Positions 5,703 to 30,124 of a stretch of DNA of 64,000 nucleotides are shown one piece after another. Numbering within the stretch: the stretch's first letter is position 1; every line of letters begins with the position of its first letter. The stretch comes from a virus. The translations under genes and the position numbers were made by a program. Where the stretch lies: positions 55,377-119,376 of the IMG/VR virus record IMGVR_UViG_3300042446_000849. The stretch is one strand, 5' to 3'. The notes below the pieces were generated by a model, which was not told where the DNA came from, ran no database searches, and saw only the letters and a program-made list of their open reading frames with translations.

Positions 5703-8700
5703 TTAAAATGTAGATAACGCGTATCTAACCCAATAATCTTGTTCTACGCATAAGTATACATAATTTGCGTCTGCAATTATAGAACCTTGTGCACCTCGAC
5801 TAGATGATGAAGTTGGTATAGCTGGTGAATATTTATTTGTAGATGGCGCAAAATTGCAACCATGTGTCAACACGGGCCACAAGTTGCTGCCATTGGATAA
5901 TGTTTTTCTGGCGGCATCTTCTGAAAATCCTGCGGCAGGCCACCAGCCACAACCAATAAATGATATTGGAAATACAACAGATGAATCAGATGCTTCCAAT
6001 GCTACCCAATGTGAAGAAATAGTACCAGGTATACCATTAAAGCTACACCCAGTAAGAATTCCTGTTAAGCCTGGTCTGCTTACAGTTTGTTCTACCCAAC
6101 ATTGTGCTTTACCGCCATTGTGTTCAAAGTAAACTCCGTGTAGCGCAAAACCATTCGATGATTCTTGTCCACCTACACTGTCTCCACCTGAATTAGTTAA
6201 TCGCAATCCCCATTTAGATGTGGATAAATCTGTACCCGTACCATTGCCTTCAAAACTGCCGCCTATATAATTAAATGTACCTGCTCCTACTACCCAACCA
6301 CCATAAAAATAATTGTTACCTACAGTACAACCTATCATAGTAATAGCATTTGGGCTAGAATTAGGTGTTGAAGCTGCATTTCTTTCAAATCTAAATCCAT
6401 TATTATTAAATGACAATGTTGCTCTTTGTATATGGCTGCTTAAGAAATTAGACGCATATATGCCTGTACCAAACCCTTTAATATTTACATCATCTATTTC
6501 AAAATATGCAAGTTGATTCATTGTCAGCCCTGCGCCAAACCCTGATGCGGTTCCAAGTATACCCATTTTTCTTATAGCGGAATAACCGCCAAAAGAACTA
6601 GCACTAGCACCAGTAAAATTAATACCATTTTGCCCTGAAGTTTCTTGGTAAATATAACTTGAAGCAGAACCTTCACCTTCGAAATTTACCACTTTAATAG
6701 GATCAAGTCTAAATGGCACTGATACATTTATTGGAGATGTTATTTTATAAGTGCCTGCGGGGAAAAATATTGTGCCGCCATTTGCTGCTAAAGCTGCCGC
6801 TACTGCAGCATTGATTGCAGCAGTGTCATTAGTTGTACCATTTCCTACAGCGCCATAAGTTTTTACATTATAAGTAAAACCAACTCCGGTTGCACCTACC
6901 GCCCCCGACGCGCCGGTTGAACCAACTGTACCTATACCCGTCGCACCCGTTGCACCATTTTGTCCACTAGCGCCGGTTGCACCTGTTGCCCCGACTGAGC
7001 CTGCACCCGTGGCGCCTGTTGCTCCGACTGAGCCTGTACCAGTAGCACCAGTTGCACCAGTTGCACCGGGAATAGTACTTGCCGCTCCCGTAAGACCTGT
7101 AGAGCCTCGTACACCTGTAGCACCAGTAGTGCCTAATAGTCCTGTTGCACCGGTCAACCCTGTTGCGCCAATTACACCTGAAGAACCAGTTGCACCTACA
7201 ACACTAGCTCCTGAGGCTCCTGTTGCACCAATAACACTTAAACCAGACGCGCCTGTTAGTCCAGTTGCACCTTGGACGCCAGTAGCACCTGTTGTCCCCG
7301 CTCCTGTTCCACCGGTCAATCCTGTTGCACCGGTTAATCCTTGTACACCTGTGGCGCCTCTCAATCCTGTTGCGCCTAATCCAGTAGCACCAGTCGCACC
7401 CAAATTTCCTGTGGCTCCCGTAGATCCCGTTGGACCTATTAATCCTGTTGCGCCTGTGGCGCCAGTTCCACCTATACTTCCAGGTGTGCCCGTTGCTCCT
7501 GTTAAACCAGATGCGCCACTAAACCCTGAGGCACCAGTTGCCCCAGGTAAACTTAGTCCAGACGCACCAGTTAGTCCTGTTGCTCCGGTTAATCCTGTAG
7601 CACCAGTTGATCCTATTCCTGTTGCTCCTGTAGATCCCGTTGCGCCTGTCGATCCGGGTATTACAGACGCAGCACCAGTTGAACCGGTCAATCCTGTTGC
7701 GCCAGTTGATCCTATTCCTGTGGCTCCCGTAGATCCAGTTGGACCTGTTAATCCTGTTGCACCTGTTGGGCCACCTGAAGGACCTGTTGCGCCGGTTGCA
7801 CCATCAACACCAGCACTACCTGTGGCACCTGTTGGACCACCCGATGGGCCTGTGGCACCTGTTAATCCTGTTGCGCCAGTTGTTCCTTCGCCGGTTGCGC
7901 CTGTTAATCCTGTGGCTCCCGTAGATCCCGTTAAACCTTGTATACCTGTAGCACCTCTGAAACCTGTTGCACCAGTTGCCCCTGATGACCCATCTATTCC
8001 AGACGTTCCCATATTTCCTGTAGCACCTGTAGCACCATCTGAACCAGTGGCGCCAACTAAACCTGTGGCTCCTCTTAGCCCAGTTGAACCAGTTAAACCA
8101 GTAGATCCCTGTGTGCCTGTAGCACCAACTGATCCTATTCCTGTTGCCCCTGATGCTCCTGTTGCACCCGAACCTGTGGCGCCTGTTAATCCTGTTGATC
8201 CTCGTAGTCCGGTTGCACCAATTAATCCTGATGCACCGGTTGAACCTTGTATACCTGTAGCACCATCAATCCCCGAGACACCTGTTGCACCAGGTATTCC
8301 TGTTGAACCTCTGCTACCAGTTAAACCAGTTGCTCCAGTTAATCCTGTAGCGCCTGTTAGACCAGTTGAACCATTAATTCCTGATGCACCAGTTAAACCA
8401 GTGGCGCCTGTTGAACCAGTTGCACCATTTGGTCCTCTTATGCCTGTTGCTCCAGTAATACTTTGTCCTGTGGCACCAACAGATCCTGTAGCACCTTGTA
8501 ATCCAGTTGCGCCTGAAGCACCAGATCCTGTAGCGCCTGTTAGACCAGTTGATCCTGTTGCACCTGTTAGACCAGTTAAACCAGTAGCACCAGATGGGCC
8601 TGTTGCACCATCATATAAGAATATTGCGTTTTGCGATATAGGTGTGCCTGGGACAACTATAACATTACCAGTTTGTCCAGGTTCAACTTCAACGATACCT

Positions 8701-8996
8701 TCTGCTATTCTATAACTTGTAGTTGTGTTTGCAGCATCTACATAGTAAATATATCTACCAACATTAATATTTGCTGTACTAGAATTACTCAATCCTATAG
8801 CAATTACACCATTTGATGCATCAATTACTGTAGTTATAAGTGCTGCTACAGCATTCGCAGTAGTATAAGATTTTTTAACGTAACCGTAGACATTAAACCC
8901 ATTTAAATTTATGGGTTGTTTTTGATTGTCAACAAACGTTATTTGGTCCGAATACGTCGTACCTTGAATTACTGTAAAATTAACAACTATTGACAT
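5703..8996 (-). CDS. Collagen-like tail fibre with pectate-lyase-type beta-helix tip
   Basis: A 1097-residue protein in three parts. Residues 1-129 are a beta-rich N-terminal domain ([15 protein letters not shown]), probably the virion anchor. Residues about 130-702 are an almost unbroken collagen-type Gly-X-Y tract dominated by GATG and GLTG triplets. Residues about 703-1097 begin with [20 protein letters not shown], the start of a pectate-lyase-3 right-handed beta-helix, and form the likely receptor- or polysaccharide-binding head. Collagen stalks make trimeric fibres, so this is probably a trimeric adhesin. It sits between the neck genes and a group of small tail proteins. Enzyme activity of the tip cannot be judged from sequence alone. 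Confidence 0.85.
6890..8610 (-). repeat. Degenerate 9-nt-periodic repeats encoding collagen Gly-X-Y triplets
   Basis: About 1.7 kb of short-period repeats encode roughly 190 Gly-X-Y triplets. The plus strand is rich in CCTGTTGCACC-type units. The 9-nt periodicity is strict, but codons drift between copies, so the repeat is old or kept diverse. It also creates a long proline-rich open frame on the opposite strand, which I treat as an artefact. Confidence 0.9.
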
Positions 8997-14858: not shown

Positions 14859-17800
14859 TTAAATTCCTACTAAAGAATAGTTTACTGATTTATATCCGTT
14901 ATTTTCAATTTGCACAGCTTTAGGATAACGCTTTTCAACTTCGTGAGCCATATATCCTTCAAACACGCCATGTCCTGCAATATCTTTAAATTCTTTTCTA
15001 TATTCATATTGATATAGATTTAACCCGTTTGGCATTTTTCTAACAAACTTGACGTTTGTTTTCATTCTTTCATCTGAGAATAATTTTTTAAGACCCTTCC
15101 ATACAACTTTTACTACTTTAACTGCAACATATGCAACAGCAACAACTGCCGCAACTTGAATAAGTACGGGTGCGGTACTAATATATGCAGCAAATGTAGT
15201 AGCACCAGATGCAATTGCTGCGGTTGCAGCTCCTAAAATAGGCACGCCGGTGGTTGCTGCAGCTAATGCACTCGCCCCCTGTGCAATTCCAGCAAAGACA
15301 AATGTTGCAGACGCTGATACAAGTTGTGTTAATCCTGTTTGCAATCCTGATAATGTAGTACTAAAAGAATTTGAAAAGATGCCGCCCAATGTGTCTGTTA
15401 AACTGGTCAATGCTGTACTAAAATTGGCAGCTCCAGAAGTTAATAGTTGAGAATTTAATAAAGATAACTCAGTCGCAGTAGCCAATCCTGCAGTTGTGCT
15501 TGGTATTACGCTACTACTACCTGTTAACCAATCGGATACAAAACTTGTCATGTCTTTCAAAGTTGTAAAACCAGAATTTACAAATTTAGATAGTCCATCT
15601 ATAGAACTTATTGAATTATAAAAATTCAAACCAATATCTCGAACCGCTCCCCACGCTACAGATAATATACTTTCTCCATAAAATGCTGCCGTATTTGCGA
15701 ATCCCCCAATTCCGATGCCATCCGCAAGGGCAGCAATACTATATGCTGTAATTACTTTTGATGCAACTAACCCACCAAATAATAACAGGCCTCCGGTTAA
15801 CCATATATTAATATTAAAGGAATTTTTCTTTGAAATTTCTGCTCTACCCACACCATCATTAATAGCACCAGGATTTACATTAATAAAACTATTTGCTTCT
15901 AATTGTGATGCAAATACTTCATTTACATATTTCATAGTAATAAGATCATTTATTTCTAAAATGTCTATATCTGCTACCACATTTAAATCTACATTATATA
16001 CTGCAAAACCGGGGAAACATTCTTGTTCGTCAGTATCAACAGCAACACCAAAATAACCACTTGTAAGATCAGCTTTATCTGTGTCGGTAAAATCTTCAAC
16101 TAAAATGCCAGATTTCAACAATGTATCGCCGTTATCATTTGTTACAATGGATCTCAAATTTGCAATTTCAATACTTTGTAATTTTACTGCTTTATCTAAA
16201 TTAATTGCAAGAGTTTCAATTTTGCCTATGTCTCGCATAGTGAAGCGTTTATTATCATCATATGTTATTTTAACATCAAAAGAACTTCTTGCATATGGTG
16301 GTATTTCTAAAACTGCAAGACTCAATTTGCTAATATCCGAGATATCGTTAATTTCTTTTGGGTTAGCGGATTCGATACCTTGTTGTACATAGAATTTATT
16401 ATACGGAGAATCATAATTTTGTAACGTATTAGTCACATAAATTCTATCTTTTCTGCCAAGATAATAAGTAACATCTGCTTCAGTGTTAACTGTAGATGTT
16501 GGTATGATTGAGGCCGCAAAATTATAATAAAGACTATCATCAATTCTTCTTGGTCTAAAATCTATTGCATCTCTCAAATTAAATTCATTTGAATCTACAA
16601 CCGATCTATAGGTTGGTATTCTAGAATAGTATGAAGCTGGATATGATTGTACTGTAGCTGGTCCTTCGCCCGTATGTGTAAAATAATCAAATAACACTAA
16701 AACATTTCCAGGAGGATTTGCTGCAGAAATAAATTTAACTGTTCCATGATCATAGAAAGTATCTCGTTGACCATTATCTAAAATATAATTGGTGTTAGTC
16801 TCAGAAATCAACGACGTCCATGCATTGGCATTTACTGGCGAAATATTAGACGTTGGTGCAATTGCAATATATGCGGTACTATCTAAAGTTACTATGTCAT
16901 TATAATTATATGATGTTGTAGAAATCCAAGATCCAAGATATTTTCCAACATTTGATAATGCATATAAATTCTTAAACGATGTAATATCGGATTTACCTAA
17001 CGAATACGCATAATCAGCCAATGCAACATTTACAATTTTTGCATGATTCTCAACTAAAGTTTTTGTTCTTGGTTGTAAATCGTCGCTTTCAATTTTTAAA
17101 GATACATCAGCAATTCCGGTGAATGACGGATCATTCATATTAATAGTTAATGTAGCGGAATCACCGGCAATTGTTGTTGTGCCTCTTTCAAAATTATAAG
17201 CACCTAAATTTGTATTGCCTGTTGCTCCACTTTTTACCAACACAATAAAGTTTGTTCTTGCAGTACTTGCAGGAATTATACCATCACCCAATGCAAATGT
17301 TTCTGGTGCAGATAATGTCTTTGAAAATACCCCAGAACTAAACACAGCATTATTAAAAACTCTTATATACTCACTTCTAATAGTATCAACATTTTTTACA
17401 TATGTTTTATTAATAGGAAATAACAATCGTTCTGCTGGTCTATTAGAATCAAATATTGTAGTTACGCCAGATGTAGCAATACCATCACTTGCAATATCTG
17501 CATAGAAGAAAGGTGAAGAATATGTAGCCGCAGTACCATGTGATGTAAGACCATTTGATACACCGACTACACTTCGTATTTGTTTTACGTTAATTAAACC
17601 ATCATAGAATGGACTACCGTTTACAACTTCTAAATATGCTTTAACATTAGTTAATGATCTAGCTTTATCAGTTGGATCCGCGGTGGCCGAAGATACTGCC
17701 GCAACTACCTCAGCCCTGACTTTTTCAATGTCTTTATTATTATTGATCCAAGTGTTGTACCAAAAATATACGCCTTCAACATCAGGCTCTCTGAATAATC

Positions 17801-19493
17801 CATAATATGGAGTATTTGCTGGACCATATCGCCCCCAAAGCTCATTTGATGTATAAATTACGTTTGCAATATATTGCCCATCGGCAACTGAAACTCCATA
17901 TTTCGTGGACCAATCTGCCCACGATGCTGGCACTTCTTTTACTGGGGAATATAAGTGATAGAATAATTTATATTGAGGTGCAACGTTGACTCCTCCAATA
18001 TAACTATCATATTCAATGTTTTTATATGCAAGTGTACCAACTAATGTATTTGCACCTGTTGGATTTTTTACACTATGTAATTCCAAAAACAACGAGCTTG
18101 CAGTTAGTTCTGTAGGTGAAATAATCTTATACTGCAAATTAGCTAATTTAAAATAATTACCCTGTGTAGTATTAATATTATAACCAGTCTTTGTTTCTGT
18201 CAAAGTAGACTTAGGAACAGAAACTTCTGTAGCACCTACCGTTCTTACTGGCAATCCCCCGACATATGCTTTACCCTCAGACAAAGAGAATTTTAAATCT
18301 GCATCAGTTTCTAGCCCAACAATTGGCGAAATCTTAAATTGATTTACTACATAGCTTCCAGATTCATCGTATGTTCTTTCTGCTAATTTTTTATCTAAAT
18401 CGGCATCTGCAGTTAACTCTGCAAGGAATTCAATTTGCCCTTTATTGTAATTTAATAAAGGAATTACATCGCCGGCAACGGTACCTTCAACTTTACCATC
18501 GTCATTGACATCTAAACTTACGAGGTTTAGATCTACTTTTAATCTATCAGCACCCGTTGCAAAATAATTTGAACTACCAAACGCAGGATCTAAAAGTGTA
18601 TTATCATCCTCACTTGTAATAATTTGTTGATCACTTAAATAACCAACCAATTTTGTTGGGTAAGCTGTGTTTTTATCCGGTACAATTCTTTGTAATGATG
18701 CTTTAACAAAAAACCCATATTTGTAAAAGATTGCATCATCCTGTGATACTATAGTTGTTGGATTTGTTGGTTTGGTAACATAAGCAACATTTTGCCCACC
18801 AATAACAACATCCGGTGCATCACTAATTTCTATTTCTAAAGTATTTACAATTTTAGTGACATACAGTTTCTTTGTTATAGAAGGATGTACTAATAAATCA
18901 CCCACTTTAATAATTGTACTTGGGTTTGTTAGGACAACCGTTTTAGAAAATTGTTTAAGTGTAGATATTGCATTTTTTGTAATATCGGTTGTTGCAATTG
19001 CAGTGTAGCTAGGTGTTGCTTTGTTTAATGCATCTGTATAATCAGTATAAAAATACAGTTCATCGTTTTCTGTAAACATACCATCATTTTCTATATTGTA
19101 TTTCTTTAAAGAAATAACAATACTAATAGGGTCACCTAATTCAGGATCATCTGCTTCATATACAAACTCTACATAACCTAAAACTTCTGATGTTGCTGTA
19201 GTAACATACGTGTTCAATAAATTTGAAACAGTAATAGGTGTGCCGCGCGAATCTGTATTTTTTAAACGAATTGTTCTTGCATCAAGATTAACTGACGGGG
19301 CAGGGCCTGAAACTTTACTACCATCTTTGAATAGAAAATTACCTACAGACTTAATTTGATTTTGTAATATTGTCTGCGATTGAGTTAGTTCTCTTGCTTG
19401 TACCGCTACACCGGGTTTGAATAACACTCGAACGAAGTTTTTATCTTCATCGAAGTCATCAAAATATGGTGAAACATTTGTTAGTACAGTCAT
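14859..19493 (-). CDS. Giant baseplate/fibre protein with DUF4815-like N-terminus and S74-type C-terminal chaperone
   Basis: A 1544-residue protein, the longest in the window. The N-terminus (YFDDFDEDKNFVRVLFKPG, then VQARELTQSQTILQNQI) matches the DUF4815-type head of large T4-like tail proteins. Around residues 1240-1450 there are several hydrophobic, Ala/Gly-rich stretches. The last 72 residues, beginning SDERMKTNVKFV at about 1473 and including GYMAHEVEKRYPKAV, form an intramolecular chaperone/peptidase S74 domain, which in other phages trimerises a fibre and then cuts itself off at the Ser of the SD pair. Ser-Asp is present, so self-cleavage is plausible. Confidence 0.8.
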   Translation of the reverse strand: MTVLTNVSPYFDDFDEDKNFVRVLFKPGVAVQARELTQSQTILQNQIKSVGNFLFKDGSKVSGPAPSVNLDARTIRLKNTDSRGTPITVSNLLNTYVTTATSEVLGYVEFVYEADDPELGDPISIVISLKKYNIENDGMFTENDELYFYTDYTDALNKATPSYTAIATTDITKNAISTLKQFSKTVVLTNPSTIIKVGDLLVHPSITKKLYVTKIVNTLEIEISDAPDVVIGGQNVAYVTKPTNPTTIVSQDDAIFYKYGFFVKASLQRIVPDKNTAYPTKLVGYLSDQQIITSEDDNTLLDPAFGSSNYFATGADRLKVDLNLVSLDVNDDGKVEGTVAGDVIPLLNYNKGQIEFLAELTADADLDKKLAERTYDESGSYVVNQFKISPIVGLETDADLKFSLSEGKAYVGGLPVRTVGATEVSVPKSTLTETKTGYNINTTQGNYFKLANLQYKIISPTELTASSLFLELHSVKNPTGANTLVGTLAYKNIEYDSYIGGVNVAPQYKLFYHLYSPVKEVPASWADWSTKYGVSVADGQYIANVIYTSNELWGRYGPANTPYYGLFREPDVEGVYFWYNTWINNNKDIEKVRAEVVAAVSSATADPTDKARSLTNVKAYLEVVNGSPFYDGLINVKQIRSVVGVSNGLTSHGTAATYSSPFFYADIASDGIATSGVTTIFDSNRPAERLLFPINKTYVKNVDTIRSEYIRVFNNAVFSSGVFSKTLSAPETFALGDGIIPASTARTNFIVLVKSGATGNTNLGAYNFERGTTTIAGDSATLTINMNDPSFTGIADVSLKIESDDLQPRTKTLVENHAKIVNVALADYAYSLGKSDITSFKNLYALSNVGKYLGSWISTTSYNYNDIVTLDSTAYIAIAPTSNISPVNANAWTSLISETNTNYILDNGQRDTFYDHGTVKFISAANPPGNVLVLFDYFTHTGEGPATVQSYPASYYSRIPTYRSVVDSNEFNLRDAIDFRPRRIDDSLYYNFAASIIPTSTVNTEADVTYYLGRKDRIYVTNTLQNYDSPYNKFYVQQGIESANPKEINDISDISKLSLAVLEIPPYARSSFDVKITYDDNKRFTMRDIGKIETLAINLDKAVKLQSIEIANLRSIVTNDNGDTLLKSGILVEDFTDTDKADLTSGYFGVAVDTDEQECFPGFAVYNVDLNVVADIDILEINDLITMKYVNEVFASQLEANSFINVNPGAINDGVGRAEISKKNSFNINIWLTGGLLLFGGLVASKVITAYSIAALADGIGIGGFANTAAFYGESILSVAWGAVRDIGLNFYNSISSIDGLSKFVNSGFTTLKDMTSFVSDWLTGSSSVIPSTTAGLATATELSLLNSQLLTSGAANFSTALTSLTDTLGGIFSNSFSTTLSGLQTGLTQLVSASATFVFAGIAQGASALAAATTGVPILGAATAAIASGATTFAAYISTAPVLIQVAAVVAVAYVAVKVVKVVWKGLKKLFSDERMKTNVKFVRKMPNGLNLYQYEYRKEFKDIAGHGVFEGYMAHEVEKRYPKAVQIENNGYKSVNYSLVGI

Positions 19494-19502
19494 ATCTTTT
19501 CC

Positions 19503-20801
19503 TTAAAATTCTATTACAAGATGTAAATTATCTGTTTGATCTATTGTTCTAGTTACAGGTTCTCTATTTTCCAAATAAAGTATTTCACCGGTGTCTTGCA
19601 TTACTTCTGATAATAAAGATTGTGTAACTATTGCTGTTGCTCCGGAAGTCCTGCCTATCACAGACTCTCCGATTGTAAATGGTTTATAATTTTCTGTTGT
19701 TCCAAATGATTGAATATATCTAATATATCCGTTTCCTGAAACCACATTTGATGTTACTGCATAAGCATTTGCTTTACTAGTAATACCAACAAGGTATTCG
19801 TTGTTTATAAATGTGCCATTTACGTTACTTACATTTATACCAACCAATCCAGATAATGTTGCAGCATTTGCCAAAACATTGCCTGTCTGCATTGGATTTT
19901 TAACTATACCCACTTTTCTAAAAGAAAATCCTGTAGGGAAATCTCCGTATCCTTCATTGTATTCGGCTTTTACATTTAACATAACATAATACGCACCTAA
20001 TTCCGATACAGGATCATATCCATGCCCATTAACAGGACTCAATATTGCTTTAATGTTTGCTAACCTGCCTGTGCCTTGATTGTCTGAAATATATGCATTT
20101 GCAAATCTATATTTTGAACCAGCATTGGTATATACAAAATCATAGATAACGCCTAAATTTTGTTTGGCTGAAATATTTGCATTTATGCCGTCGCCCTCTA
20201 TTGTAACTTTTGAGAATACTGAATAATCTAAACCGCCATTATAAATTTTAATATTTTCTATAGCACCATCTTTTGCAACAGTTGCAACATCTGTATTTGT
20301 TCTTACGGGCATCCAATTGTCTGTTAAGAACTTTAATTTGTCTGATGTAGATACAGTATATAAGTATTTCCACTTATAACTATCAGAAGTAGTAAATATA
20401 TTTAAACTTTTTCCCGTTGGTTCTACTGTAGATGCAGATCCACCTACATTGTCGATACACTTATATACATCAAAATCTCTATTGATTACATAGAAATTTT
20501 TTGTCAATAATTCTGTGTCCTCGTGGTCATATTCAGCATATATTGTTTGAGCCTCCCAATTTATACGCTTAATAACATTAACCATATTAGTAGGCACTAT
20601 GCGTTTTAAACTAACAATTTCATCCCATGTTTTAGAATAATTTTGTTGTGAATCTTTAGGGTCTGGCGGAAAATCGCCCTCACCCCAGGGGTCGGGTTTT
20701 GCTAAGAACATATATAATGTGTTTTCTCCGGAAACAGTATAACTGTCCAAGAAACTCTTAGCATTACTGATTTTAAATTTGTTAGTTACTATGTTAGGCA
20801 T
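19503..20801 (-). CDS. 8: Baseplate wedge subunit gp8
   Basis: A 432-residue wedge protein of the T4 baseplate. The N-terminus ITNKF-type start (IVTNKFKISNAKSFLDSY), then NTLYMFLAKPDPWGEGDF, IKRINWEAQTIYAEYDHED and YKWKYLYTVST match T4 gp8 segments in order. The C-terminal half is longer than in T4 and carries repeats such as VNGTFINNEYLVGITSKANA. It lies directly downstream of the protease-Calx gene, which occupies the position near gene 7 in T4. Confidence 0.88.
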   Translation of the reverse strand: MPNIVTNKFKISNAKSFLDSYTVSGENTLYMFLAKPDPWGEGDFPPDPKDSQQNYSKTWDEIVSLKRIVPTNMVNVIKRINWEAQTIYAEYDHEDTELLTKNFYVINRDFDVYKCIDNVGGSASTVEPTGKSLNIFTTSDSYKWKYLYTVSTSDKLKFLTDNWMPVRTNTDVATVAKDGAIENIKIYNGGLDYSVFSKVTIEGDGINANISAKQNLGVIYDFVYTNAGSKYRFANAYISDNQGTGRLANIKAILSPVNGHGYDPVSELGAYYVMLNVKAEYNEGYGDFPTGFSFRKVGIVKNPMQTGNVLANAATLSGLVGINVSNVNGTFINNEYLVGITSKANAYAVTSNVVSGNGYIRYIQSFGTTENYKPFTIGESVIGRTSGATAIVTQSLLSEVMQDTGEILYLENREPVTRTIDQTDNLHLVIEF

Positions 20802-20811
20802 CTATTATTTA

Positions 20812-23800
20812 TTATAAGTTAAATAGCGATGTTACGGAATCGGCTGTCAAACTATTGGATGCATTGCTTGCACGCAATGCAGGATTATCTATAGTAATTG
20901 CCGAGAACGTATCTATTTCTGTATCGTTTGTTACTTTCACTTCTAACGACTTTGCATTATATGGCATTGTTTCATTATTTATTTCGCTAAAAACACTCAA
21001 TCCTGCAGGATGTAGTACAGAGCGAATACTGCTACCCCATTCTTCTATAGACTTAGATGAACGTATAACATACGAAAATGGTTGATAAAATGCAATCGAA
21101 TCTTCTGTTGCATATTGGGTCTTGCCTTGCAGATACATATTTTCTGATAGCTGTCCCGATGTATCTTTCCAATATGATTTTGCAATAGCCATACCACCTA
21201 TGTTGGCACGCAATGTTGCAGTATCTAAAAAGCGAAGGACTATATTTCCAGTATGCGTAGCAGCCGAAGATAAATATGTGTTTCCAGAATCTATAATTTC
21301 AATTAAAGGTGATGATGTATTCCTATTTGGTATTTCTATATAGAAAAATTCAGCTTGCTCAAACAAATAATCGTCTCTAATTTCAAGAGTTATATTTGCA
21401 ATGTTTGAACTAATTGCAGGAAAATACCCGTCTAAAGAACTTATTCTATCAAAATCACCTAAAGTAATATCACCCTTTTGACCTATAATTCTCCAAGGAA
21501 TTATAGTACCGTCAGGTATATTTGAAGTGACTAATGATAAAGTAACATTGCTACCTTCAACTACCCTGGTCCTATTTGCGTTAATAACAAAATCGGGTCT
21601 GGTTGTAACTGAAGTATCTAATACTGTTATTGTACTTGATACTTGTAAAGAATATGGAAAAGTAGGATCTAATAATAAAACTATTGTTTCAAGCCCTTCA
21701 GATTTTTTATCATCTAAAACAGTTAACGTAAGATTTGCTTGTGTTTGGTTTGCTGTTCCTGTAGGTAAAAATGTAAGAACTCCGGTAAGAACACCTTCTG
21801 CAATATCATCTGCTTGTATACCAAATATTCTATATGGCACAACTGTACCAGGAGTTAGATCTACTGCCTTTATAAAGAAGTTAGCATAACTACCTTCATA
21901 TATTGCAGAAGAAACAGATGTTATACTAAATTTAACTACTATATTTGACGTTGTAGTTGAAGTATCTTTTACGATGACGCCTATGTTTTGATTTGCGCCC
22001 GTACCTGTTAAAGTTAAATAAAATGTTTCATCAAATTCTGTTTTTAAATCTTTTTTAAGATCCAGTGTTATTCTGCCTTGATTGCTACGAACATTAAAAT
22101 TTCCAGACAACGAAGTTAATCCGGTAAAATCATCTGTACCAATACCAGTTCCCGTAATTGTAAATGGCACCAATGTGTTATTAGGTATACCGCTGGTATC
22201 CAATATAATCGTTACATTGGAGCCTTCGTTTACCGTAGATGAAGTTGTTGATAGGGTATACGTTGGCACCACAATAGGATCTACAGATTTAAGTTTCACA
22301 GAAATATCATCATTGCCAGTATTAATATACAACGTGTCTATTAATGTAAGATAACGATTGGGCGACCCCTGCAAACTAAAAAGGTCATTAGCACCTCCAG
22401 CAGTGTCTGGAATTTGATTTAATTTAGCATTTGCTATTATAAGATTTCGAGCAGCACTATGAGATAATGTCGGCGATGCTTCTAACGCACATGCCAACAT
22501 GCCGGTGACCTGCGGCGCAGCCATACTCGTCCCACTAAGTTTTGCTATATAATAAGCGCTGTTTCTTGGATCAGGTACAGGAGTAGTACCTGTCGTGGCG
22601 CCGGTAGTTGTAAGCCACGCACTGGCAATAAGTGCTCCGGGTGCATACAAATCAACTCTTGGACCACAAGAGCTCGTGTCTTGTTTTCTGTCTGCACCTG
22701 GACTTGAAATTGAAGATGATATATTACCTACACATATGACAGTCGATGTGGAACCCGGTGAAGAACCTTGGTTAAAATATATAGGATTACCCGAATTAAT
22801 TCCCGATGCTGTCACAGTATTGTTATAATCAATATCGGTGGGATCGGTTGTTATTTTAACACTATCATTACCAGCGCAGGCTACCATAATAATGCCAGCA
22901 TCAATACAAGCTTGTATATCAGCATCCATCGCAGCATTTCTTAGTCCAATAAGAACATTATTGCTGGAGTTAACAATAATGCCATACGTTGCCAGCTGAT
23001 TAATAGTAAATGGGCCAGACACAGTTGAGCCACGATATGTCAGAGAAGTGATATTACCATATGGGATTGTGTAGCGAGAATACCAACTACTGTTTACGAT
23101 TGTTGGCGTCATGTTGCCAACTGAACGTTTTTGGTTGTGCCACTCTAATATGTATTTGTACAAATAGGTATATTGTACGCCACCTGTTACATATTGAGGA
23201 CTTATGTTATAGATGTTAGCATTAGGCGCCCAACCTTGCGTATTTCCCGCAGCAATACCTGCCACGTGTGCTGCATGTCTGCTATCATCAGAAGAAGAAG
23301 TACGATTAGTTGTTATTGGAGGATTATATACACTGCCATATGCGGCATCACCGGGTATGTTTAGATTATACCAATTAAAATACTTTACTCTACTGCCGCC
23401 AGTGCCATCTGAATTCACAGCAAATTCAGGATGAGATGGATCTAAGACCCCATCTACGATAACTATATCAACGTTTTTACCACTGGCTTTAAGCGCAACT
23501 GTACCAGACAAGTTTGAAGTTGCAGTGGCTGGCGAAGATCCCCAATTGTTATTAGGATTAGACCCATACCAAGACCTATATAATCCCCAATTGCGGTCTA
23601 AATTAGTCACAGTAAATGACTTGCTCCAACTGCCAGATGTTCTAGACCAAGAAATCAAATTAGTTGAGTCAATCAAAAGCCCACCTGCAACGCCAGATAG
23701 TCTCAATACAAATGTTTCATCTGATTCTGTTTTTAAATCGTTCTTAATATTTAAAGTTATTCTACCTTGATTATTGAGAATAATAAAGTTACCAGACAAC

Positions 23801-23958
23801 GAAGCTAAACCTACAAAATCGTCTGTATCAATACCTGTACCAGTAATTGTATATGGCACAAGTGTATTATTCGGTATACCTACAGTATCCAATGTAATTG
23901 TTACAGCGGAACCTTCGTTTACTGTAGATGATGTTGCTGATAGAGTATACGTTGCCAT
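20812..23958 (-). CDS. Subtilisin-family serine protease with four Calx-beta domains and a gp7-like baseplate tail
   Basis: A 1048-residue mosaic. Residues about 3-90 are a Calx-beta domain. Residues about 120-545 are a peptidase S8 domain with Asp169 (IVIVDGVLDPSHPEF), His228 (DDSRHAAHVAGIAAG), oxyanion Asn364 (VACAGND) and Ser478 (LSGTSMAAPQVTG), so the full triad is present. Residues about 565-930 hold three more Calx-beta domains. The last ~100 residues contain FYQPFSYVIRSSKSIEEW and VLHPAGLSVFSEI, the C-terminal signature of the gp7-like baseplate protein of marine T4-like phages. The gene abuts the gp7-like N-terminal gene with no gap. I infer a virion-bound protease that attacks host surface protein. 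No signal peptide is seen, and cytoplasmic or structural use cannot be excluded. Confidence 0.85.
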   Translation of the reverse strand: MATYTLSATSSTVNEGSAVTITLDTVGIPNNTLVPYTITGTGIDTDDFVGLASLSGNFIILNNQGRITLNIKNDLKTESDETFVLRLSGVAGGLLIDSTNLISWSRTSGSWSKSFTVTNLDRNWGLYRSWYGSNPNNNWGSSPATATSNLSGTVALKASGKNVDIVIVDGVLDPSHPEFAVNSDGTGGSRVKYFNWYNLNIPGDAAYGSVYNPPITTNRTSSSDDSRHAAHVAGIAAGNTQGWAPNANIYNISPQYVTGGVQYTYLYKYILEWHNQKRSVGNMTPTIVNSSWYSRYTIPYGNITSLTYRGSTVSGPFTINQLATYGIIVNSSNNVLIGLRNAAMDADIQACIDAGIIMVACAGNDSVKITTDPTDIDYNNTVTASGINSGNPIYFNQGSSPGSTSTVICVGNISSSISSPGADRKQDTSSCGPRVDLYAPGALIASAWLTTTGATTGTTPVPDPRNSAYYIAKLSGTSMAAPQVTGMLACALEASPTLSHSAARNLIIANAKLNQIPDTAGGANDLFSLQGSPNRYLTLIDTLYINTGNDDISVKLKSVDPIVVPTYTLSTTSSTVNEGSNVTIILDTSGIPNNTLVPFTITGTGIGTDDFTGLTSLSGNFNVRSNQGRITLDLKKDLKTEFDETFYLTLTGTGANQNIGVIVKDTSTTTSNIVVKFSITSVSSAIYEGSYANFFIKAVDLTPGTVVPYRIFGIQADDIAEGVLTGVLTFLPTGTANQTQANLTLTVLDDKKSEGLETIVLLLDPTFPYSLQVSSTITVLDTSVTTRPDFVINANRTRVVEGSNVTLSLVTSNIPDGTIIPWRIIGQKGDITLGDFDRISSLDGYFPAISSNIANITLEIRDDYLFEQAEFFYIEIPNRNTSSPLIEIIDSGNTYLSSAATHTGNIVLRFLDTATLRANIGGMAIAKSYWKDTSGQLSENMYLQGKTQYATEDSIAFYQPFSYVIRSSKSIEEWGSSIRSVLHPAGLSVFSEINNETMPYNAKSLEVKVTNDTEIDTFSAITIDNPALRASNASNSLTADSVTSLFNL
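22003..22260 (-). repeat. Calx-beta direct repeat, copy 2
   Basis: This 258-nt segment encodes residues 567-652 of the protease gene. It is a close relative, in both DNA and protein, of the N-terminal Calx-beta segment at 23692-23949 (YTLSTTSSTVNEGS against YTLSATSSTVNEGS). The protease domain lies between the two copies, which suggests domain duplication. Confidence 0.8.
23692..23949 (-). repeat. Calx-beta direct repeat, copy 1
   Basis: This segment encodes residues 4-89 of the protease gene and pairs with the copy at 22003-22260. Runs such as CCTTCGTTTAC followed by GTAGATGA are shared on the plus strand. The high DNA identity (roughly four in five bases by eye) points to a fairly recent duplication. 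Confidence 0.8.
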
Positions 23959-25335
23959 TTAAAATCCAGGATATTTGTATCTAATTGATCTTACATTTGG
24001 AATAGATGTAATTGTAGCATTATGTGAGGTATTGTCAATTGGACTAAACACATTTCCAGTATAATATGCGTTTATATTTTTACCTCTGACTAAACCGTGT
24101 TGTATTGGAAATGTTAAGGTAACTTGTCCATTTTTAACAATATAAGTTCCTGTTAAAGATTCAGTTGGTAATCCGGGATCAATTATTGTCTTTGCGCTAT
24201 AATTTAATCCGGGTTCAATAATTTCTATATTTGTGATTGCGCCAAATCTATTCACACTATTAATTTTTGCTCTTCCAAGAATACCCGCCTCGTCAGTAAT
24301 ATTTATTGCATTATTCTTTTTATATCCTAACCCACCGTCGACGATATCTATTCTGCTAACAACTGAATATAGTCTTGCTGTTAATTTGGTTGTTGTAAAA
24401 TTTTCACCTGTGAGTAATATAGTTTTTGTTGCAGATATTTGTTCGTCTGCTAAAAATTCTCCAGTAATACTAGTTGTATCTAACATTAATTCATATACAT
24501 CAAATCCGTTCAAATCAATTTTAATTACTTTATTAACAATTGCTTTTGCTTTTGACGTTATACCAACTATTTCAGTATTTTCAAAATCAAAAATGTTTTG
24601 TCTACCGGTAATTTGCTTAACTCTTAGAGCTCTAGGAGTAACCAATTTTCCATCAGATGATTTTAAAACAATATCATACGGATAGAAGAAATCAATAGAT
24701 TCTCTGTAAAGAACATTGAACAATAATCTATATGCGGGCTCAGTGCCTTTTTTACTATAGATTTCTCTTATTTTCTTTATCAGCAACCTATTATTTGCGC
24801 TGCTAGAAACAGTTAAATCGCTTGCATAATTTTGAATAAATCTAGTAACTAAATTTTCTGTTGTCTCATCGATGTCTGCATATTTAGAAATATCCTGTAA
24901 TATCTCTTGTGCTTGATTATTTTGTTCTAAAAATTCATAGTATGCTTTTATGAATGTGACAAACATACCATAATCAGATTGTATGAAATCTGGTAACTGA
25001 TCCTCAACTAAAATTGATAATCTATTTTGTATTCTTTTAAAAGGATTCTCTGCACCATTACCGTTATGCAAGGTATAAATTAAAGGATCTCTTAATTGTG
25101 CTAAATTCTTAAAACTATCTGGTATATAAAATTCACCCGTTCTACCATAAAATGTTAGTGTCTGATAAATGCCTTTGCCGGCTCTATCTATATCTGCTTG
25201 TATTGCTTCTTTACGTGTAGTGTATAACGGATAAAACCATCCTTCTAGATAACCAGCAAAAGATTCGGGTCTAGATGTTCCGTATAATTTTAAAGGACCC
25301 AATAAAGTATCGGGCGCAAAAATATTTTCTGCCAT
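23959..25335 (-). CDS. 7: gp7-like baseplate wedge protein, N-terminal part
   Basis: A 458-residue protein. After an unusual N-terminus it has LVEDQLPDFIQSDYGMFVTF, then KAYYEFLEQNNQAQEILQ, IDETTENLVTRFIQNYASDL and LLIKKIREIYSKKGTEPAYR, the conserved front half of the large gp7-like wedge protein of aquatic T4-like phages. The back half has GGLGYKKN and PGLNYSAK beta-repeats similar to those in the sheath. In related phages, as I recall them, the same polypeptide ends with a FSYVIRS/HPAG segment; here that segment is on the next gene, fused to the protease. The protein therefore looks split. Symbol by analogy and gene order. Confidence 0.7.
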   Translation of the reverse strand: MAENIFAPDTLLGPLKLYGTSRPESFAGYLEGWFYPLYTTRKEAIQADIDRAGKGIYQTLTFYGRTGEFYIPDSFKNLAQLRDPLIYTLHNGNGAENPFKRIQNRLSILVEDQLPDFIQSDYGMFVTFIKAYYEFLEQNNQAQEILQDISKYADIDETTENLVTRFIQNYASDLTVSSSANNRLLIKKIREIYSKKGTEPAYRLLFNVLYRESIDFFYPYDIVLKSSDGKLVTPRALRVKQITGRQNIFDFENTEIVGITSKAKAIVNKVIKIDLNGFDVYELMLDTTSITGEFLADEQISATKTILLTGENFTTTKLTARLYSVVSRIDIVDGGLGYKKNNAINITDEAGILGRAKINSVNRFGAITNIEIIEPGLNYSAKTIIDPGLPTESLTGTYIVKNGQVTLTFPIQHGLVRGKNINAYYTGNVFSPIDNTSHNATITSIPNVRSIRYKYPGF

Positions 25336-25336
25336 T

Positions 25337-27181
25337 TTATTGTGCGGTTACTGTTACTGTTAACCCAGCTAAACGCTTGGATGTTGTATCTAATGTGCCA
25401 TCATCTATAATAAGTATTAAATCTTTTGTTGCGTTAATATCTAATTCTTCAATTTTAGCATAAAATCGAATGTCACTTGTGTTTTCAATATATCCTGCAG
25501 GATTTAAACTTGCTATAGATATTGTTCCATTGACATAATCAACGGTTCCTAGTGATGATACTAATAAACTATCTGTATAAAGATCATATAAATTTAAACT
25601 ACTAGTACCGTTTGTTGTTAAAATATCTTTAATGTATACTGCTTTTATATCATCATTTATTTTATAAAAAAATCCTGTAGACTGTATGCTTCCTGATAAT
25701 AATTTATTTGCAAATTTTATAGTTGTTGCGCCGGTATAACTATTTGATATATTAACTACAGGCGTTATTCTTTTATGAATTCTAAAATTTGTTACGTTAC
25801 CAACAATGGATGAGTTAATTGAATCTATTGTCTTAGATAATTTAGAATATACAAAATCCTTATCAAATTGTTGTAGTTCTGTAGAAAAATATTCTTCAAT
25901 TTTTGCTTTAGCTAAGATTTGTATTTCGGGTGTGGTATATCTTGAATTTGCTGGATCAAATTTTACTTTTGTTTCCAAAGTAATATGTAAGTAATTTGGA
26001 TCAACAAATTCAGGTATAATAGACATTATTTTTTTATCTTGTAAAATGTCTTGCAATATTTTATTTTTAAGTTCTGTATTAATAGTGTAGCCAAAATATG
26101 GCTTCAATGAAATAATAACCTTACCATATTTTGGTGGAATGTTTTCTTCTCCTCCCCAAACAGATACAGATTCCACTAACGGATAATTGGATTCAATAAT
26201 TGCTTTATAATCTTTTGCTGTCACTGCTCTATTAAATGAAGATAAGAAACGAGGAGCTTTAAATTTAATGTCTTCTAATGTGTCTGGTTCAGCACCACCC
26301 GTTGAGTTTGTTGCCGCTATTATAGTAGACCCTAAATTAACACCGCCTACAAGTGCGCCCAACGAAAATCTTTGTTCTATCTCCCCAGACACATTGCAAA
26401 CGGAACCATTACTAATTAAGTATTCAATTTTTACTAAATTACCAGATACTAATTTTTTGCCCAAAATATTGTCACCAAAAAATATTTCATAAAATCCAGA
26501 AGGATTTTCTTCTAAGAAAAACACTTTTGATTCGGCTGTCAATGCTTCTAAATTGTCTGTTAGACTATAACTTTGTGTTGTTAGATCAGTGTACGAATTT
26601 TGAACCGTTACCCTAATTGTGGTTGTATCTATATTTTTATTTGGTATTGTATATTTTTCTTCAGGTCCAGAAACATCAACTCTATAAACATAACTTAATG
26701 ATTCACCCTCTACTATGTCAATATCTGTGAATGTATAGACACCATTTGTTGGTTTAATTGTTACTGAATCTAAGTTTGAAAACGTATACTGAGTATTATT
26801 AATTGTTGTGGTAAAGGGTGAAAACTTAGGTAGTGTTAAAGTGGGCGGCGTATCTACCGGATCATTAATTGTGAATGAAACTTTTGCTATAGCGCTTCTA
26901 TAAGACAATGGTCGATATCCCAAATGTTTTGCAATTGATACCGCAGATTCTCTTTTAACGACAGAATCTAAAAACATTTCATTCGCAACCATATTTGCTA
27001 AGTAAGCATTATAGTGTGTATTGTATGATAACAAATCTATTAGTATAGATAAACTAGATGCTTCAAAATCATAATCTTTAAAAATAAGATTATTATCTTT
27101 ATCTCTATAGTTTGTTAAAAATTGTTTGAGATTGACTTTAATATCATCAAAGTCTAATTCTGCTAATCTGTAATTTGCCAT
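25337..27181 (-). CDS. 6: Baseplate wedge subunit gp6
   Basis: A 614-residue core wedge protein, homologue of T4 gp6 and related to the gpJ/TssF families of contractile systems. The N-terminus LAELDFDDIKVNLKQFLTNY, then EASSLSILIDLLSYNTHYNA and YLANMVANEMFLDSVVKRES, is highly characteristic. It abuts gp25 with no gap, as in T4 (25, then 6). Confidence 0.95.
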   Translation of the reverse strand: MANYRLAELDFDDIKVNLKQFLTNYRDKDNNLIFKDYDFEASSLSILIDLLSYNTHYNAYLANMVANEMFLDSVVKRESAVSIAKHLGYRPLSYRSAIAKVSFTINDPVDTPPTLTLPKFSPFTTTINNTQYTFSNLDSVTIKPTNGVYTFTDIDIVEGESLSYVYRVDVSGPEEKYTIPNKNIDTTTIRVTVQNSYTDLTTQSYSLTDNLEALTAESKVFFLEENPSGFYEIFFGDNILGKKLVSGNLVKIEYLISNGSVCNVSGEIEQRFSLGALVGGVNLGSTIIAATNSTGGAEPDTLEDIKFKAPRFLSSFNRAVTAKDYKAIIESNYPLVESVSVWGGEENIPPKYGKVIISLKPYFGYTINTELKNKILQDILQDKKIMSIIPEFVDPNYLHITLETKVKFDPANSRYTTPEIQILAKAKIEEYFSTELQQFDKDFVYSKLSKTIDSINSSIVGNVTNFRIHKRITPVVNISNSYTGATTIKFANKLLSGSIQSTGFFYKINDDIKAVYIKDILTTNGTSSLNLYDLYTDSLLVSSLGTVDYVNGTISIASLNPAGYIENTSDIRFYAKIEELDINATKDLILIIDDGTLDTTSKRLAGLTVTVTAQ

Positions 27182-27592: not shown

Positions 27593-30124
27593 TTAACCTA
27601 GATTTACCAATTTATTGTATTTAGATTGATGGTTCACAAATGTTTGAACACTTGCGCCCCTTGATTGTACCAATGCGCCTTTGTCAGATAAGAACGCAAC
27701 GTGTATCCATGCAACTCTAATTTTATCTGTGCCGGCATATGTTTCATATTCTAAAAGAACTTGTCTGTGAGGAACATTTGCTGTAATCCATGCGGCAATA
27801 TCTTTAATATCGCTAATTTTTCTATTTGGCCAAACTAAATCTGCAGCAGCACCTATTCCATGATCACTACCATTTGTGCCAATTCTAAAACCGCTACTAA
27901 TAATCATACCTGGATATTTTGCATTAATCGGCTCTAAAACATTTTCCGCCAACTGTATTAGATTACAAACAATATCTTGCTCCTGTAATCCTCGTTGTGC
28001 TTGTAAGGCTGGTCCAAATTTCCCAACTAACAAATTACCAAGTGTAAACGATTTTGATAATTTAAATGATCGAGGAAAACTGTTATTAAACTTAGTGCAT
28101 ATCTCACAATCTGCTTGTAATATTTTTGCGTTTGATACTACACCAATGCTTCTAGCAAACAAGTCTCCTGCTTTAGGAGTTAGTTGAATATTATTTGATA
28201 TTTCACCTGCCGCTTCTCTTTGTTTATTATATGCATCTGCTTCTGGCTCGCCGGAATCTAATAAGAATGAATCATCATTTAAAGCTTTTCTTTGTAATAC
28301 TGGTATTTGTGTAGTGTTGGGTGTCTTCTTTGTTGGTGGTGTTAATACACTTAATGCAATTGCTTTTATAATATTTGCACCCATTTTTGTTTTTACTATT
28401 GCAGCATCAATTAATACTGTTAATCCACCCTTCAAACTTAATGTGCCAGTAGAACTAGACTGAAGATTTAAATCTGAACTAGATTTAATATTAATTGCTC
28501 CACCACTAGATCTCATACTTATGCTTTTGCCTTGTATGTTGATAGCTCCTTCTGATGCAATATCTAAACCTTTTTTTGCAGTTACAATTGCTGTATCTGC
28601 AACTACAGCTATGTTGCCTGCGGATTGAACTAAAGTATCGCCGCGCCCTGTTACTGACAAATCACCTTCTACTTCTATAACAGCATTGTCCTTAACTAAT
28701 ATACTTGTTTTGCCTTCCACGGTTAAACAATGCGCACCCTTAACATAAACAAAATTATTACGATCCATTATCTCATAATTTTCGCCTACTGTTTTCCTGA
28801 CCATTGACCCATTTACATCTATTTCAATATAGGTTCCTTTTTTGTGGAATACCTGTATTCTTTCAGCGTTAGGTGTACTATCTATTTCTATAACATGACC
28901 AGCTTCTGTTTCTATTACTTGATTATATGGGTAATTGCCCGCAAATGCTGGATCAGGCTCATCCCAAGTTTGAGATGTTCTAGCCAATTGTATATTTTCT
29001 ATCTTATTATTTTCTTTTACCTGAAAAGATAAATGAGACCTATCACCTACTGCAAGTTTATTAACATCGGATAACCCGGCATACTCAAATTTTGGATATT
29101 TTTTATTGGGATCTTCAAACCCCTTTGCCTTAGCTAAATCTTCATTATTTAATGTAGATGTATTTGGTAAATAGTTACCCGCTTCTTCATATGTTCTAAA
29201 AAACTCTGTAGAGTCACCGCCCAATATAGAATTGCCAACGATAAAAAAGTCTCTTGCCTTTGTACCAGCATATGTTTTTTTATCTAACTTGTCAGAATTT
29301 TTTGCTCCCATTACGTGAGCAGATGCTAACAACCCACCTACAACTTGATAGTTATCTGTTTCTTTTACCTTGCCCAATCTGACTAACGTATCATAGTTAC
29401 TTTTCGTATAATCAAACATTGCTGTTTCTTGAACACTTGTACTAGCTAAAAAATCACTTTTAGATTTTATGCCGCCTTTGTTTGTCCAATTTAAATTGTT
29501 GTCTGCTATATCACTAGTGATAATTCCCCCAGGCGGTCTTCGTAAATATCCAAGATCAATTAGCGTAGATAGTGATAACTGATATTTTCCCAATTCTCCA
29601 CTATCACCAACTTTAGTGTAAACACCCGCTGATAAAGTATCGCCTATTGCTTTAGTTAATTTTGTTAAGTCTTGAGACTTTAAAGGTAATAAAGTTTCCG
29701 TGGCATCTAATTGTACTGCATCATTCTTAATAGCATTGCCCAATGGATCATATACTATATTATTTCTACTGTCTTTTAGTGTGTTTGTTTCTATACTTGC
29801 TTGAACCTGTTTTGCTTTTGTTTCTGCATTTGACGATGGTTTGCCTGCAATCGTTCCCATCATTACAGGTTGTTGTGCCTCCTCACCATCTAAAAACCAA
29901 CCCACAACCCAAGAGCCAGTTACTATTCCTATCGGTGTTGTTCCAACTCCTGATGCTGCCGCCGAAGTTATTGGTTGTATAGGTATAGCCCATGGCAAGT
30001 CTTTTGTCGGTAATATTGTTATGTCATCAGTGTGGTATCCAAATATTCTAACTCGGCAACGACCAAGTTTTTCGGGATCGTCTCTACTCTCAACAACACC
30101 TGACCACCAAACCATTTCTTTCAT
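27593..30124 (-). CDS. 5: Baseplate hub/needle protein gp5 with a lytic-transglycosylase-like insert and an M15-type peptidase tail
   Basis: An 843-residue spike protein. Residues about 1-110 are the gp5 OB-fold (WWSGVVESRDDPEKLGRCRV, WVVGWFLDGEEAQQPVMMG). Residues about 165-310 resemble a lysozyme/transglycosylase-type domain (GELGKYQLSLSTLIDLGYL; GGLLASAHVMGAKN) in the place where T4 gp5 has its lysozyme. Residues about 430-620 are a repetitive beta-helix needle (AINIQGKSISMRSSGGAINI). The C-terminal ~150 residues have SDHGIGAAADLVW, fitting the SxHxxGxAxD zinc motif of M15 peptidases, and a later His in WIHVAF. It therefore appears to carry two peptidoglycan-cutting domains. A 4-nt overlap joins it to gp27. 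Confidence 0.85.
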   Translation of the reverse strand: MKEMVWWSGVVESRDDPEKLGRCRVRIFGYHTDDITILPTKDLPWAIPIQPITSAAASGVGTTPIGIVTGSWVVGWFLDGEEAQQPVMMGTIAGKPSSNAETKAKQVQASIETNTLKDSRNNIVYDPLGNAIKNDAVQLDATETLLPLKSQDLTKLTKAIGDTLSAGVYTKVGDSGELGKYQLSLSTLIDLGYLRRPPGGIITSDIADNNLNWTNKGGIKSKSDFLASTSVQETAMFDYTKSNYDTLVRLGKVKETDNYQVVGGLLASAHVMGAKNSDKLDKKTYAGTKARDFFIVGNSILGGDSTEFFRTYEEAGNYLPNTSTLNNEDLAKAKGFEDPNKKYPKFEYAGLSDVNKLAVGDRSHLSFQVKENNKIENIQLARTSQTWDEPDPAFAGNYPYNQVIETEAGHVIEIDSTPNAERIQVFHKKGTYIEIDVNGSMVRKTVGENYEIMDRNNFVYVKGAHCLTVEGKTSILVKDNAVIEVEGDLSVTGRGDTLVQSAGNIAVVADTAIVTAKKGLDIASEGAINIQGKSISMRSSGGAINIKSSSDLNLQSSSTGTLSLKGGLTVLIDAAIVKTKMGANIIKAIALSVLTPPTKKTPNTTQIPVLQRKALNDDSFLLDSGEPEADAYNKQREAAGEISNNIQLTPKAGDLFARSIGVVSNAKILQADCEICTKFNNSFPRSFKLSKSFTLGNLLVGKFGPALQAQRGLQEQDIVCNLIQLAENVLEPINAKYPGMIISSGFRIGTNGSDHGIGAAADLVWPNRKISDIKDIAAWITANVPHRQVLLEYETYAGTDKIRVAWIHVAFLSDKGALVQSRGASVQTFVNHQSKYNKLVNLG

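Follow-up and report, generated by a model that had tools for sequence, protein, structure and literature searches.

Gp7-type proteins are part of the (gp6)2-gp7 wedge, and glycan-degrading enzymes on phage tails are well known. According to passages in published papers, VrlC appears to replace T4 gp7 in pelagi- and cyanomyophages (PMC7029224), and the gp7 orthologue of Vibrio phage XM1 attaches tail spikes (PMC10457771). Subtilase genes in cyanophage tail regions have already been annotated, and two cyanophages carry an S8 peptidase gene according to a comparative paper (PMC3037559). Here, we analyzed a stretch of 64,000 nucleotides (nt), hereafter the window, which corresponds to bases 55377-119376 of IMG/VR record IMGVR_UViG_3300042446_000849 (119,376 bases; uncultured virus). 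Its interval 20812-25335 holds, on the minus strand, two abutting genes of 458 amino acids (aa; 23959-25335) and 1048 aa (20812-23958), the latter carrying an S8 subtilase domain. In this virus, a baseplate protein made in two pieces has acquired, on one of them, a protease domain which is absent in close relatives and sits on different tail parts in other phages. This suggests that such viruses can fit their landing gear with an exchangeable protease.

A wedge protein in two pieces

Profile matches and alignment show that a single wedge protein is encoded here as two halves, one in each gene. The 458-aa product (gp7N; 23959-25335, minus strand) matches PHROG 17744 (baseplate wedge, 6e-42) and lies in the gene order gp25-gp6-gp7N-gp8, and residues 906-1048 of the 1048-aa product (gp7C; 20815-21243, minus strand; YQPFSYVIRS ... 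LHPAGL) match PHROG 4406 (virion structural, 4e-12). One profile of 497 positions, PHROG 26741, is shared out between them, with positions 6-275 in the 458-aa protein (E 8e-31) and positions 375-434 in the 1048-aa protein (3e-5). Baseplate_wedge (PF23786) is divided likewise: its N part falls in the 458-aa protein (26.2), whereas positions 209-282 of its 284, the C part, match the 1048-aa protein at residues 922-994 (15.3), both under the cut-off of 27. An unsplit homologue of 515 aa (L070) is collinear with both halves, its C-terminus with gp7C. Both gp7/VrlC segments are present, but on two polypeptides instead of one. This comparison bears out a preliminary description of the locus, which had read the end of the long gene as a gp7-like C-terminal segment, the N-terminal part as a separate adjacent gene and the whole as a fusion to a core baseplate gene: one TAA separates the two genes, and the displaced gp7C sits behind beta-sandwich domains.

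By the alignment with L070 and the model of that protein (mean predicted local distance difference test, pLDDT, 73.0), the split point, placed by eye, is a loop at ~361-373 between a strand ending at 360 and a strand starting at 371; the last residues of P0002 are misaligned in the alignment with the unsplit homologues (A7). The junction reads PGF-TAA-ATG in the window and is similar throughout the clade, with a single in-frame TAA between the genes. Stop-codon read-through was considered and rejected, the junction being always TAA and the next start usually abutting or 1-3 nt off, which is ordinary operon spacing. The unsplit relatives (54 sequence-distinct complete open reading frames, ORFs) span 239-1474 aa. 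Because several of them hold hundreds of extra residues between gp7N and gp7C, e.g. from 349 to 781 in L071, the place of the split is, as far as alignments can tell, an insertion-tolerant site. At the short end, L029:1611-2330 encodes an unsplit gp7-like protein of just 239 aa with adjoining N and C segments. In the split clade, ~100 N-terminal residues of gp7N (window 23959-25335, minus strand) have no counterpart in the unsplit homologues of A7. A distant lineage, L153, has gp7N (483 aa) and gp7C (101 aa) in separate frames, perhaps by a second split or a frameshift.

The top Foldseek matches of the L070 model are 9f4a_A0 (Klebsiella phage KP1, 1031-residue chain; E 8.6e-6) and T4 5iv5_BJ (E 1.9e-4), chains that we take to be gp7 (the Foldseek rows name complexes only). 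The TM-scores against these T4-type baseplate chains are just 0.15-0.16 (VIA Z 9.3; root-mean-square deviation 13.9 and 17.6). A match of P0002 in Synechococcus phage S-MbCM7 is annotated VrlC. The gp7N profile matched nothing in a sequence search of the PDB, and a scan of genome contigs with this profile returned a single weak locus, which was not used.

The subtilase and the beta-sandwich domains

The 1048-aa protein is built, according to Pfam, PHROG and alignments, of beta-sandwich domain 1a, the subtilase, beta-sandwich domains 1b, 2 and 3, and gp7C. The same gene occurs at 100% identity in a contig from another metagenome (L003), with a truncated copy in L002; the same fusion in these separate contigs rules out an assembly chimera as its source.

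Peptidase_S8 (PF00082) matches residues 160-517 with 88.3 bits (cut-off 21.8), within a catalytic domain of residues ~112-545 (22324-23625, minus strand). Asp169, His228, Asn364 and Ser478 lie within VDIVIVDG, RHAAHVAG, CAGND and SGTSMAAP, so that the triad is intact in the letters, as had been described. His228, Asn364 and Ser478 align with the catalytic positions of proteinase-K-like structures (2b6n). The whole-protein model has a mean pLDDT of 75.1 and a predicted TM-score of 0.49, and its pLDDT is mostly 84-97 at residues 151-360. Its S8 part matches 2b6n, 1s2n and 2prk in Foldseek with probability 1.00 and TM-scores by target of 0.68-0.71 (2b6n 0.71). Thus the domain has both marks of an S8 peptidase, the Asp-His-Ser triad with the oxyanion Asn and the proteinase-K/subtilisin fold. 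The ratio of nonsynonymous to synonymous substitution rates (dN/dS; Nei-Gojobori) for the window's S8 is 0.18 versus L169 and 0.16 versus L172, rough values as dS exceeds 1. It ranges over 0.07-0.20 across the computed pairs except the near-identical L169-L170 (0.31). Such low ratios point to purifying selection and fit a functional enzyme. The structure alignment (A6) covers 22 of 28 S8 pieces and 23 of 36 beta-sandwich-gp7C rows.

Domain 1a (codons 1-86; 23701-23958, minus strand) is an extra copy of the first beta-sandwich domain, recognized by its nucleotide identity to copy 1b and to relatives, and it sits N-terminal to S8. Domain 1b (codons 564-649; 22012-22269, minus strand), which also aligns at the protein level, corresponds to the clade's native first domain of the second gene; it begins with GTG in the window and has an ATG start in relatives. 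Domains 2 and 3 with their linker (residues ~677-905; 21244-21930, minus strand) align with L004-L010, L023, L024 and L026 and are strand-rich in the model. The Calx-beta profile PF03160 has no match in the 1048-aa protein at E 0.1. It matches related proteins, over the cut-off of 27 bits in L021 (28.5 bits) and under it in L022 (22.1 bits), and the window's model finds NCX1 in Foldseek, mixed with other beta-sandwich proteins. The label Calx-beta-like rests on this predicted fold and on the Pfam matches in related proteins.

Repeated gain of subtilases at one boundary

We surveyed contigs from five scans in which a gp7N gene is not fused to gp7C (74 distinct contigs, the window's own record excluded; L069 and L126, with gp7C and no gp7N, and L153 were set aside). 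The gene downstream of gp7N lacks S8 in 55 complete cases and, over the visible part, in 6 truncated ones. Six contigs carry S8, six end inside gp7N and one has no downstream frame. The split therefore occurs without visible protease in 61 of the 67 informative contigs, including the window's closest S8-less neighbor, L004, whose gp7N is 98% identical. The preliminary description held that protease and Calx modules had together split gp7. The beta-sandwich part of this claim stands, as these domains go with the split; the protease part fails by the yardstick that the description itself had set, since the split is clade-wide without it. On this distribution, the beta-sandwich insertion accompanies the split, and the protease arrived later, more than once.

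Compared with S8-less relatives, the window has one ~1.7-kb insert between the two copies of the first beta-sandwich domain. The copies are identical to each other at 206 of 257 nt. Copy 1b, the downstream and native one, agrees with L005/L006 at 233 of 258 nt, and copy 1a is roughly equidistant from several relatives (207-216 of ~258 nt versus L004-L010; 216 of 258 for L005/L006/L008/L009). This pattern suggests that a different member of the group was the source of the S8 and of the beta-sandwich copy that accompanied it.

S8 occurs in the split contigs L018, L280 and L021/L022, and also in L002 and L003, whose sequences are identical to the window as far as they extend. L018 retains, after the gp7N stop, seven codons from the beginning of the second gene (MTTYRLS, followed by TGA), and these overlap a separate subtilase gene at its start. 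The complete L280 locus reads gp6, gp7N, a 1054-aa subtilase with its own N-terminal domain, an intact beta-sandwich-gp7C gene of 529 aa, and the start of gp8. The S8 domains of L018, L280 and L021 are 32-34% identical to that of the window, and those of L018 and L280 are 52% identical to each other. A single clade for the S8s of this site was rejected by the approximately unbiased (AU) test (p-AU 2e-90) on a careful tree of 28 S8 domains, hand-chosen from 91 rows, with the tested group named after a first tree; long branches (L021, L018/L280) make their exact placing uncertain. This disposes of one ancient S8 at the site followed by many losses. Judged by these trees, three acquisitions are safe, namely the window, the L018/L280 family and L021/L022, and at least four changes are needed to account for the presence of S8 on a gp7N tree built by quick search from 66 split rows. 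Overall, the dissimilar subtilases gained at this boundary are 31-34% identical.

A propeptide-less cassette on other proteins

Free-standing phage subtilases (S-H38, S-CREM1, L190, L018, L021) have a conserved N-terminal domain of ~80 aa. It resembles inhibitor I9 propeptides weakly (17.1 bits at best, with a cut-off of 21.2), and it is perhaps a propeptide. The window's S8 lacks this domain: PHROG 9158 matches from profile position 109 on, and beta-sandwich domain 1a takes its place. A search for the missing domain elsewhere in the virus record (alignment A9, run without a positive control) found none. The window's S8 belongs to a propeptide-less clade of 13 rows (Shimodaira-Hasegawa-like approximate likelihood ratio test 99), represented by 8 rows in the careful tree (100/96). 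Three rows lacking the N-terminal domain fall outside this clade: L235, which is cut at its 5' end, L238 and P-SSM2.

Among the best 79 of at least 578 S8 loci, a sample biased towards the window's S8, members of this clade are carried by a gp5-type OB hub protein (L172, L173, L175), by a 746-aa protein just upstream of gp6 and gp7 (L169, L170, L174), by proteins of 1085-1135 aa (L171, L176-L178) and by a giant open frame of 5087 aa in which S8 occurs twice (L180). The gp5 identity of the first carrier rests on PHROG hub/tail-lysozyme matches of L172 (3.5e-24) and on a stretch of 99 aa that is 44% identical to the gp5 of the window itself. Attempts to identify the carrier parts of the 746-aa and 1085-1135-aa fusions gave no name. 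In other phages, a subtilase gene with the N-terminal domain separates an unsplit gp7 from gp8 (L190, L244) or immediately precedes gp8 (e.g. L182-L185). In L225, an ORF of 902 aa in which three segments match the S8 profile neighbors another of 548 aa, and in L199 two subtilase genes with N-terminal domains are close together.

Genomic context

On the minus strand, the window reads gp5-like hub (27593-30124), gp25, gp6 (25337-27181; PHROG 219, 1.6e-149), the 458-aa and 1048-aa genes, gp8 (19503-20801; PHROG 438, 1.6e-109; PF09215, 62.3 bits) and a DUF4815 protein (14859-19493). As the nearest named relatives by gp6, Methylophilales phage Melnitz and Pelagibacter phages, are only 37-38% identical, the source is, by gp6, a distant, uncultured T4-like virus of bacteria. 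The hub protein ends, in its C-terminal third, in a stretch that by eye resembles an M15-type peptidase. Residues ~520-631 of the DUF4815 protein recur behind the L021 subtilase (residues 536-646, 35%). This segment carries the pattern YGLYR..D..GL.YW, presumably like that of DUF4214, and its recurrence is, from the alignment, domain shuffling between baseplate proteins. Further along (5703-8996, minus strand) lies a 1097-aa collagen-like tail fibre with weaker tail-spike-family matches, one named for colanic-acid degradation.

Discussion

We propose that, in an ancestor of the clade, a gp7/VrlC-like protein was broken at the loop corresponding to ~361-373 of L070 and that two to three beta-sandwich domains were added to the N-terminus newly created on its C-terminal half. 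Together with gp6, the halves presumably come together again in the wedge, which would leave the beta-sandwich string as an outward stalk. Subtilases have landed repeatedly at this N-terminus, which would be exposed. In the lineage of the window, the propeptide-less S8 apparently arrived with a second copy of the first beta-sandwich domain and was fused in frame; three other lineages have, at the same boundary, a stand-alone subtilase gene that brings an N-terminal domain of its own. The window's enzyme would be made as a structural baseplate component and cut a protein at or near the host cell while the phage adsorbs or penetrates. Given the position of gp7 in the wedge and the spikes of XM1, whatever is fused ahead of gp7C would lie at the outer baseplate. 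The idea of an active protease at that place, as the preliminary description had it, gains strength from the cassettes on other tail proteins such as the gp5-like hub and from purifying selection. Since related cassettes are also fused to the hub protein, proteolysis at the host surface or during penetration would be the simplest common function.

Overall, the best explanation, and in our judgment a fairly probable one, is that the split-gp7 halves reassemble in the wedge and that the subtilase is displayed on the baseplate, acting on a host-side protein. The subtilase appears to be a portable protease cassette that has repeatedly docked on baseplate proteins, probably sits on the virion and cuts a host-surface or matrix protein. 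A wider reading, to which we give somewhat less than an even chance, is that the cassette moves among T4-like tail proteins (gp5-type hub, gp7-type wedge and others), that the split-gp7 boundary has evolved into a docking site where dissimilar subtilases were installed at least three times, and that the phages thereby hold an exchangeable virion protease against a host protein barrier at infection.

Several points weigh against a displayed, active protease. The literature searches found no virion proteomics or activity data for any member. gp7C is of low confidence in the monomer model, and the absent N-terminal domain may be needed for folding. S8 is missing from most relatives and so is, on this survey, dispensable for assembly. 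The L018 S8 has Glu for the catalytic Asp, as has L280 when read by eye, and the second of the two S8 copies in L180 is degenerate (G-H-D-D); from these cases, the S8 fold can persist without the triad.

The same substitutions argue for the S8 fold being mainly an exposed binding domain, with catalysis incidental or lost, as does the shuffling of beta-sandwich and DUF4214-like segments at this locus. Some S8 copies may indeed serve solely as binding domains. As an account of the window we regard this as unlikely: the D-H-N-S columns are kept in 88 of the 90 aligned phage S8 rows, i.e. in the window and 87 of the 89 others (exceptions L018 and the second L180 copy), and the low dN/dS of the computed pairs also stands against it.

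Less probable again is a maturation enzyme whose targets are baseplate or tail-fibre proteins of the phage itself, cleaved as the particle is assembled, its tether to the wedge being incidental. Free-standing subtilase genes with the N-terminal domain do adjoin gp8 or lie between gp7 and gp8, among assembly genes (L190, L244, S-H38, S-CREM1). However, 55 complete loci of the clade lack S8 here, and the gp6, gp7N and gp8 of the nearest are 86-98% identical to those of the window, so that no obligate cleavage of these proteins would depend on S8 at this site; moreover, the site has received different S8 families. Assembly processing therefore seems less likely than host-surface proteolysis. The least probable alternative, a free enzyme of the late operon with gp7C as a relic, can appeal to the low-confidence gp7C model and to the free-standing subtilases of the same operons, but gp7C is strongly conserved across the split clade and no further gp7C-like frame was seen between gp7N and gp8 in the window.

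If the subtilase is displayed on the virion, as we favor, the hosts would present a protein barrier in the form of a surface layer, a pilus, or a protein of the outer membrane or matrix, and the cassette would be a natural portable protease module. The two-gene gp7 shows that a core wedge protein tolerates fission where its relatives insert long segments. Because subtilases were gained independently several times at a single boundary, their selective value can be tested. Our literature searches retrieved no paper on a baseplate-fused subtilase or a split gp7, and none of the papers found describes proteases that serve conserved baseplate proteins as exchangeable modules.

Comparison with known systems

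With T4 gp7 and VrlC, the two genes have in common the place between gp25-gp6 and gp8 and the N and C segments that match wedge profiles; they differ in being two, of which the C-terminal one carries three to four beta-sandwich domains and a subtilase. The subtilisin-like serine protease genes of cyanophages (S-H38, S-CREM1, Sf-FR1; P-SSM2 T4-GC 292) belong to the same S8 family, are 30-42% identical to the window (tblastn) and often lie beside baseplate or tail-fibre genes. In contrast to the window's subtilase, they are free-standing and not fused to gp7, and S-H38 and S-CREM1 have the ~80-aa N-terminal domain (not recognized in P-SSM2), which the window lacks. The gp5-OB fusions (L172, L173, L175) likewise carry a propeptide-less S8 of the same clade, 68-71% identical and fused C-terminally to a conserved baseplate protein. 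Their carrier, however, is the central hub and not the wedge, and the gp7 of L172 is unsplit.

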